Shown here piece after piece: positions 8,362-11,547 of a stretch of 64,000 nucleotides of DNA; positions within the stretch are counted from its first letter, which is position 1; each line of letters opens with the position of its first letter. The notes under the pieces were generated by a model that was given only the letters and a program-made list of their open reading frames with translations, ran no database searches and was not told the DNA's origin. The DNA is from a candidate division TA06 bacterium (GTDB lineage Bacteria; Edwardsbacteria; AC1; EtOH8), in assembly GCA_016235665.1 (NCBI GenBank), contig JACRJI010000012.1, positions 1 through 64,000 of the forward strand, read 5' to 3'. A program made the position numbers and the translations under genes.

Positions 8362-8393
8362 AACCACCAGGGCCGTCCGCGAAAAACACGCCA

Positions 8394-8406
8394 CCGCCTG
8401 TGGCGG
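8394..8406. repeat. Short palindrome ccgcctgtggcgg
   Basis: Arms ccgcc/ggcgg around a 3-base centre. It shares its core with the palindromes in the tRNA-Asn remnants (11032, 11447, 11482) and lies in the 153-bp gap between pilMN and pilOP. Confidence 0.6.
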
Positions 8407-8514
8407 GGTGCCTTTAAGACGGCAAAAAGATGCGAAATCAGGATTTATTATTTCGGATATTTAGCGTATTTCGCAGGAAAGTGGTTTATCAAGCAGAAAC
8501 AAGGAACTGAATAA

Positions 8515-10999: not shown

Positions 11000-11059
11000 T
11001 GGCTCCAGCGGTAGGGCTCGAACCTACAACAATCCGCCTAAGGCGGATTAACAGCCGGA
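11000..11059 (-). pseudogene. tRNA-Asn remnant, 3' part, carrying a 17-bp palindrome
   Basis: On the minus strand it repeats the tRNA-Asn from the anticodon loop (CTGTTAA) to the 3' CCA, including an intact T-arm and GCTGGA acceptor strand. The anticodon-stem 3' strand is replaced by the palindrome at 11032-11048. The 5' half of the tRNA is absent; the GIY-YIG gene runs into this spot instead. Confidence 0.75.
11032..11048. repeat. Palindrome atccgcctaaggcggat in tRNA remnant 1
   Basis: Perfect 17-base palindrome around a central base, identical to 11447-11463. Its last base is the first base of the tta that is the GIY-YIG stop codon. Confidence 0.8.
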
Positions 11060-11308
11060 TTCAATCTTGTTTTTAATAAAAGTCCTCCCTTTTCCACTTT
11101 TAAGAAAGCGTTCTCTTTTCACTGCTTCCTGTCTGGAGGCGTATTGTTCCGAATAAACCAATAGCCAGGGGCCTTGATTGCGTTTGGTATAAAGGGTAAG
11201 CCGGTTGGCCGGGTCGTTGTGGTAAGCCAGGCGTTTCTCCATATCCGAAGTTTGCCCGGTGTATGTCTTACCGGTGGTTCGGCTTCGTATCAGATAAACA
11301 TAATACAT
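11048..11308 (-). CDS. GIY-YIG nuclease-domain protein (UPF0213/YhbQ type)
   Basis: The 86-residue protein is a bare GIY-YIG domain: YYVYLIRS, then TYTGQTSDMEKRLAYHN, with later WLLVYSEQYASRQEAVKRER. This fits the small UPF0213 family, related to UvrC and homing-endonuclease catalytic domains, which may nick DNA. It lies between two tRNA-Asn copies. Its last codons (ESGC and stop) are formed by the tRNA remnant, the stop being part of the GTTAA of the anticodon loop. No clear ribosome site is seen. Whether it moves the tRNA copies or merely landed there cannot be told. Confidence 0.8.
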   Translation of the reverse strand: MYYVYLIRSRTTGKTYTGQTSDMEKRLAYHNDPANRLTLYTKRNQGPWLLVYSEQYASRQEAVKRERFLKSGKGRTFIKNKIESGC

Positions 11309-11317
11309 AATGGTAAA

Positions 11318-11338
11318 GCCGCATAATTACTATGCGGC
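11318..11338 (-). terminator. Hairpin after tRNA-Asn
   Basis: gccgcata (11318-11325) pairs with tatgcggc (11331-11338) with a 5-base loop; read on the minus strand it is followed by TTTACC. It is probably the 3' end signal of the tRNA transcript, just before the GIY-YIG start. Confidence 0.5.
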
Positions 11339-11348
11339 CTAAGTATTC

Positions 11349-11423
11349 TGGCTCCAGCGGTAGGGCTCGAACCTACAACAACCCGGTTAACAGCCGGGAG
11401 CTCTACCATTGAGCTACGCTGGA
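11349..11423 (-). tRNA. tRNA-Asn (anticodon GTT)
   Basis: All arms fold: acceptor TCCAGCG/CGCTGGA, D-arm GCTC/GAGC, anticodon stem CCCGG/CCGGG around CTGTTAA (anticodon GTT), T-arm GTAGG/CCTAC with TTCGAGC. The body is 72 nt, discriminator G, and the CCA is encoded. Partial copies lie on both sides. Confidence 0.95.
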
Positions 11424-11446
11424 ATTAAAAAGAATTACCTACAACA

Positions 11447-11463
11447 ATCCGCCTAAGGCGGAT
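11447..11463. repeat. Palindrome atccgcctaaggcggat in tRNA remnant 2
   Basis: Identical to 11032-11048 and placed at the same spot of the tRNA sequence. Confidence 0.8.
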
Positions 11464-11481
11464 TAACAGCCGGGATCTCTA

Positions 11482-11496
11482 TCCGCCAGAGGCGGA
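11482..11496. repeat. Palindrome tccgccagaggcgga in tRNA remnant 2
   Basis: Same arms (tccgcc/ggcgga) as the other two with a different 3-base centre; it replaces the D-arm. Confidence 0.75.
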
Positions 11497-11518
11497 CTAC
11501 GCTGGAACACAAGTACTA

Positions 11519-11547
11519 ATTATATTTTATTTTCACCCAACTGTCAA
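11519..11547 (-). promoter_or_regulatory. Consensus promoter of the tRNA-Asn cluster
   Basis: On the minus strand: TTGACA (11547-11542), 17 bp, TATAAT (11524-11519). The predicted start (~11512) is 6 nt before the 5' end of the broken copy at 11506, so the intact tRNA is probably made from a transcript that first crosses that copy. Confidence 0.8.

Follow-up and report, generated by a model that had tools for sequence, protein, structure and literature searches.

A GIY-YIG nuclease gene built into a tRNA-Asn locus: a candidate homing-like module recurring at tRNA genes

The window (the whole stretch of 64,000 nucleotides analysed here, from a candidate division TA06 bacterium) contains a tRNA-Asn gene lying between two partial copies of itself, both interrupted by short palindromes. 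What assembled this locus, and what maintains it? The original prediction attributed it to a small palindromic family invading tRNA stems. Inspection base by base confirmed the intact gene (11349-11423) and the two partial copies that flank it (11437-11506 and 11000-11058). It also confirmed a palindrome following CTGTTAA in both copies (TCCGCCTTAGGCGGA) and another in the D arm of the 5' copy (TCCGCCTCTGGCGGA). A GIY-YIG ORF of 86 codons had been overlooked; it lies downstream of the intact tRNA and ahead of the 3' partial copy. On the minus strand the locus runs from promoter to broken 5' copy, intact tRNA-Asn, hairpin, GIY-YIG ORF and broken 3' copy. Its parts, together with a related hairpin elsewhere in the window, are as follows.

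11519 to 11547, minus strand: promoter predicted from the sequence, with -35 TTGACA (11542-11547), a 17-base spacer and -10 TATAAT (11519-11524)
11437 to 11506, minus strand: broken 5' copy of tRNA-Asn, from acceptor strand to T-stem, with two palindromes
11482 to 11496, minus strand: D-arm palindrome of the 5' copy, TCCGCC-TCT-GGCGGA (TCCGCCTCTGGCGGA), substituting for CTCAATGG
11448 to 11462, minus strand: anticodon palindrome of the 5' copy, TCCGCC-TTA-GGCGGA (TCCGCCTTAGGCGGA), substituting for CCGGG (3' strand of the anticodon stem)
11349 to 11423, minus strand: intact tRNA-Asn(GTT), the sole complete tRNA-Asn found in the genome
11317 to 11341, minus strand: terminator-like hairpin GCCGCATAGTAATTATGCGGC, 3' of the intact tRNA
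11048 to 11308, minus strand: GIY-YIG nuclease ORF, 86 aa (PF01541, E 8.5e-15)
11000 to 11058, minus strand: broken 3' copy of tRNA-Asn, from anticodon stem to CCA, with one palindrome
11033 to 11047, minus strand: anticodon palindrome of the 3' copy, TCCGCC-TTA-GGCGGA, positioned as in the 5' copy
8391 to 8410, plus strand: related hairpin CCACCGCCTGTGGCGGGGTG, an intergenic dispersed repeat different from the tRNA-Asn palindromes

The TTGACA/TATAAT promoter abuts the broken 5' copy and is also found before the single tRNA-Asn of relatives with an empty site. The two broken copies share 37 identical nucleotides around the anticodon palindrome, while the intact tRNA-Asn and the broken 3' copy share a 44-nt direct repeat. 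The nuclease gene stops at a TAA that is at the same time the end of the anticodon-loop sequence CTGTTAA in the broken 3' copy (CTGT-TAA). An ORF ending on the TAA of the tRNA fragment is present in three genomes (that of the window, G002 and G007). The remnant fold of the broken 5' copy is more stable than those of its shuffles (z -3.5). An assembly artefact is excluded, since G008 and G002, two other species that were assembled independently, have the same structure.

Each of the ten genomes of the phylum carries one complete tRNA-Asn (10/10). In G001, G003 and G004 the site is empty and consists of promoter, tRNA and terminator. In G002, which belongs to a genus other than that of the window, it is filled with the same succession of promoter, broken 5' copy, intact tRNA, GIY-YIG gene and broken 3' copy. 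The palindromes of G002 lie at the D and anticodon positions of the 5' copy and at the anticodon and T-loop positions of the 3' copy. Its 5' flank matches G001 and G004 and its 3' terminator region matches G003, so that empty and filled alleles of the target locus exist within homologous flanks. The intact tRNA-Asn is identical between filled and empty sites. Two further genomes show partial states. G008, from the genus of the window, keeps the broken 5' copy and the intact tRNA and has neither the nuclease gene nor the 3' copy, a state that recombination across the 44-nt direct repeats would produce. In G007 the nuclease gene lacks its 5' end and the remainder is separated from the intact tRNA by about 2 kb of other sequence.

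The PF01541 match of the window protein places it in a homing endonuclease superfamily. Its closest solved relatives by sequence are the UPF0213 proteins (PDB 1zg2 and 1ywl, E 1.7e-15), and the subfamily profile also matches SLX1, a structure-specific GIY-YIG nuclease. The group I intron endonuclease profile TIGR01453 is matched by 9 of 18 aligned relatives; the window protein itself has no match. Searches for catalytic intron RNA around the ORF gave no family above threshold, either in the window region or at eight related loci, and a group I or II intron with its endonuclease was rejected as an identity for the locus. The nucleases of the window and G002 are 67% identical as proteins, with dS 1.85 and dN/dS 0.12. 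This pair is one of five, out of seven tested, with dN/dS between 0.08 and 0.24. The other two are the near-identical L017/L028, with a dN/dS of 0.40 based on very few changes, and a pair saturated at synonymous sites. The nuclease is under purifying selection. Between the same two genomes, 63 of 69 positions of the broken 5' copy are identical and the palindrome arms are unchanged (24/24 positions); the 3-nt loops differ (TCT/TCA and TTA/AGA). Gene conversion from the intact gene could keep the tRNA-like parts of the broken copy similar but not the palindrome arms, so that this copy behaves as a maintained part rather than as decaying debris. Independent re-insertion of palindromes at identical bases would be a less parsimonious explanation.

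The palindromes themselves are distributed differently from what was predicted. The pattern TCCGCCNNNGGCGGA, whose chance expectation is 0.00 in 64 kb, occurs at 5 places in the 2.7 Mb genome, against one for the reversed pattern used as a genome control. Three of the five are at the tRNA-Asn locus and only these are convincing; one of the other two is the core of a hairpin with 16-bp arms directly behind tRNA-Ala and the last is unremarkable. The family is larger in sister genomes (19 copies in G003 and 14 in G007, controls 0). The palindrome is therefore nearly absent elsewhere in its own genome and abundant in relatives. A taste for tRNA stems does not hold: most copies in the sister genomes are away from tRNAs, and no preference for hairpin loops could be demonstrated outside tRNAs, where the flanking stems of 35 sites were not above those of random positions. 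A general rule of insertion into hairpin loops was dropped for the same reason. What does stand is a short palindrome family in tRNA-derived sequence, unrelated to rickettsial elements. It is the GIY-YIG nuclease gene, and not the palindrome, that is linked to tRNAs; the palindromes were probably recruited from a pool of dispersed REP-like repeats.

The same core had also been reported at 8394. A related hairpin does lie there, but CCACCGCCTGTGGCGGGGTG lacks the TCC/GGA ends and is part of a longer hairpin repeat. In G008 its 20 bases are also present within a broken tRNA-Ser copy, where they occupy the anticodon loop. The intergenic repeat, CCACCGCCNNN(G)GCGGGGTG, is found at 8391-8410 of the window and at L122, L127 and L130, and has the appearance of a MITE- or REPIN-like family belonging to this genome; L122 and L127 share AT-rich flanks (TTTGAAA..GTTTG ... 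CAAAATGTTGGAAA). Three other observations were made in the genome of the window. At L131 (G000:C16:160885), a 5' fragment of tRNA-Arg (GCGCCTGT|hairpin|AGCT, with a hairpin of the same type) stands beside an intact tRNA-Arg with no nuclease gene nearby, and is possibly a module that has lost its nuclease. At L102 (G000:C16, about 620-655), 36 nt from the 3' half of tRNA-Arg(TCG) are repeated exactly at a distance of about 4 kb from the gene itself (G000:C16:4612-4685), resembling the distal end of a small integrated island. At L010 (G000:C1:69875-70087) a housekeeping-type GIY-YIG gene lies amid four copies of another palindrome, ATTCCTGCGAAAGCAGGAAT and variants.

The nuclease subfamily is linked to tRNA genes across phyla. 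Relatives were called strong at 80 bits or more with the subfamily profile, and linked when a tRNA or tmRNA gene lay on the same strand no more than 400 bp away. Most members from which this profile was built are themselves tRNA-linked; in the first set it gave 38 strong relatives, of which 34 were linked. The same profile, applied to a second bacterial class, gave a sample that was not chosen by linkage, and here 24 of 29 were linked. Taking about 46 tRNA genes per 2.7 Mb, we estimate chance linkage at about 1-3%. Housekeeping-type GIY-YIG genes, which score weakly, are seldom tRNA-linked in the same genomes. The named linked matches include Alphaproteobacteria, Bacteroidota, Omnitrophota, Dependentiae, Marinimicrobia, Kiritimatiellota and Patescibacteria. 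Members of the subfamily also lie 104-184 bp downstream of tmRNA genes in several phyla (L014, L016, L199 and L216). Nuclease lineages cluster by tRNA identity, with 40 changes against a shuffled mean of 56.1 (0 of 200 shuffles as low), in a count that includes the label 'no tRNA', on a tree of only 79 columns and with a contribution from near relatives.

Many of these loci carry a broken tRNA copy upstream of the nuclease gene, with hairpins at D-, anticodon- or T-loop positions. Many of the inserts are tandem double hairpins. The hairpins often enter without loss of a tRNA base, as at 9|10, 12|13, 13|14, 17|18, 21|22, 22|23, 23|24, 37|38 and 38|39, for example in tRNA-Glu (12|13 and 38|39, L230), tRNA-Asp (23|24, L226), tRNA-Ser (37|38, L244) and tRNA-Asn (21|22, L241). 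An interrupted tRNA copy was picked up automatically in 18 of 59 tRNA-adjacent or added loci, by a scan that does not see replacements or degenerate copies. The 5' junction of the nuclease lies in or beside the anticodon or T loop in most of the 16 measurable loci. At many tRNA-linked relatives in other phyla neither broken copies nor palindromes are detectable, and hairpins just upstream of the nuclease gene are not enriched above other tRNA-adjacent loci, which have terminators. In two Flammeovirgaceae, tRNA-Ala 5' halves in which TCCCGAAAGCATTCGGGA replaces the anticodon arm stand upstream of an intact tRNA-Ala and a GIY-YIG gene; there is one half in L017 and two in tandem in L028.

We consider it somewhat more probable than not that the locus is the filled site of a minimal homing-endonuclease-like selfish module which targets tRNA genes and supplies an intact tRNA. 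Directly observed are its architecture, its recurrence at tRNA-Asn in another genus, the empty orthologous site, purifying selection on the nuclease, a broken 5' copy conserved together with its palindrome arms, and a nuclease subfamily linked to tRNA genes across phyla; mobility and a role for the hairpins we infer. A stand-alone GIY-YIG nuclease gene would have become built into a tRNA-Asn gene. The nuclease would cut tRNA genes around the anticodon or T arm, and repair from the filled copy would install the module, which amounts to homing. The host would survive thanks to the complete tRNA-Asn placed between promoter and nuclease gene, both flanking copies being broken. Palindromes in the D, anticodon and T arms may stop the broken copies from folding as tRNA. 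Most likely they disable these copies, which could otherwise compete with the intact tRNA on a common transcript, or protect them from being cut. The unchanged intact tRNA is the weak point of this homing scheme. Since it is the same in filled and empty sites, a nuclease reading the tRNA sequence alone would cut its own host, and recognition would therefore have to include flanks or junctions.

The main rival is a REP/RAYT-like system with a GIY-YIG enzyme, which we hold to be rather improbable. The nuclease would recognize the flanking palindromes as cruciforms and mobilize both itself and the dispersed palindromes, single and double hairpins being its non-autonomous copies. The presence of palindromes on both sides of the gene in the window and G002, their fixed arms and variable 3-nt loops, the resemblance of the tandem double hairpins to REPINs and the profile match to the structure-specific SLX1 are all consistent with this. 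Across 147 genomes palindrome number also follows nuclease strength (rho 0.39). However, it follows Y1 transposases as well (rho 0.27), and these are present in 7 of the 10 genomes of the phylum, including that of the window. Both correlations are weak and confounded by shared ancestry and base composition, and the idea of one mobilizing enzyme behind palindrome number was rejected. Moreover G065 has 30 palindromes and no strong nuclease, the hairpin arms vary among loci (TCCGCC, CCCCGCC, CCTGCC, TCCCGAA) and palindromes are absent at many tRNA-linked nucleases. In its boldest form, a single-domain GIY-YIG nuclease that recognizes hairpins and installs itself and short palindromes in tRNA-gene loops would be an undescribed class of mobile element present in several phyla, a non-HUH counterpart of RAYT/REPIN with tRNA genes as home sites and a replacement tRNA on board; we regard this too as unlikely.

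The locus might also be passive debris, in which broken copies of a duplicated tRNA gathered palindromes through an unrelated Y1-family transposase and the nuclease is a chance or hitch-hiking neighbour. Palindromes are indeed dispersed in relatives and the genome of the window has three Y1_Tnp genes. The recurrence of nuclease-tRNA linkage across phyla, the stop codon common to nuclease and tRNA fragment in three genomes, the purifying selection on the nuclease and the conservation of every palindrome-arm position at such a dS nevertheless make this quite improbable. Finally, the nuclease could act on tRNA itself, in an RNA-level addiction where hairpin-bearing tRNA mimics bind and neutralize it. 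The conserved mimics would fit, as would a broken 5' copy that folds stably and immediately follows the promoter, but the known relatives (UPF0213, SLX1, group I intron endonucleases) are DNA nucleases or uncharacterised and G008 keeps its broken copy without a nuclease; such a decoy seems very unlikely.

As a GIY-YIG nuclease situated at tRNA genes, SegB of the T-even phages is the closest precedent. SegB of T4/T6 is a free-standing GIY-YIG homing endonuclease whose gene lies next to tRNA genes and is thought to spread by cutting relatives that lack it (PMC2988022, PMC13096335). The likeness is that of a small stand-alone nuclease gene at tRNA genes. Here, however, the gene resides in bacterial chromosomes, encodes only a catalytic domain of about 86 aa and is fused to hairpin-bearing broken tRNA copies. 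UPF0213 proteins share the single GIY-YIG domain, but the housekeeping-type copies in the same genomes are rarely tRNA-linked. REP/REPIN sequences are short dispersed palindromes, single or paired, with RAYT (Y1) transposases (PMC8266576, PMC3733652). Such palindromes are likewise tied to a nuclease gene here, but the enzyme is GIY-YIG and not HUH, the arms are 6 bp with a 3-nt loop and the site is a tRNA gene. By eye, no GTAG/CGTC tag is common to the flanks of dispersed copies; the GTAG preceding the D-arm palindrome is tRNA sequence and not a REP tag. Nor does a Y1 transposase stand beside the palindromes, the three Y1_Tnp genes being on C8, C9 and C13 and none on C12, the contig of the window.

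Rickettsia palindromic elements, about 100-150 bp long and inserted in frame in ORFs, may also disrupt RNA genes. The present palindromes resemble them in this last respect; being 15 bp and lying in tRNA copies, they were not assigned to that family. Like tRNA-integrating islands, the locus retains an intact tRNA and has the 3' half of the tRNA repeated where the insert ends, but the insert is below 400 bp and hairpins interrupt the tRNA arms. An island was rejected, as the GIY-YIG ORF is the only substantial ORF in the stretch of less than 350 bp between the tRNA repeats and there is no tyrosine recombinase or other site-specific recombinase.

No description of a nuclease arranged with broken tRNA copies was found in the open literature searched. 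In the passages found in a survey of the GIY-YIG superfamily (PMC1564403), tRNA appears only in relation to the RNA methyltransferase domain, tRNA splicing EndA and the like, and no linkage to tRNA genes is reported there. We take the module to be a form of free-standing homing endonuclease gene; that it constitutes a distinct class is the less probable view. Its recurrence in other phyla points to an undescribed kind of small selfish element living off tRNA genes. UPF0213-type small GIY-YIG proteins occur widely, and we found no role for them. A subfamily residing at tRNA and tmRNA genes in many phyla, fused with hairpin-interrupted tRNA copies, would explain the existence of such genes and show how a host can survive the invasion of an essential tRNA gene that it has in single copy. 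It would also account for some tRNA pseudogenes and GC-rich palindromes by giving one origin for them. The module moreover gives directly testable predictions of cut sites.
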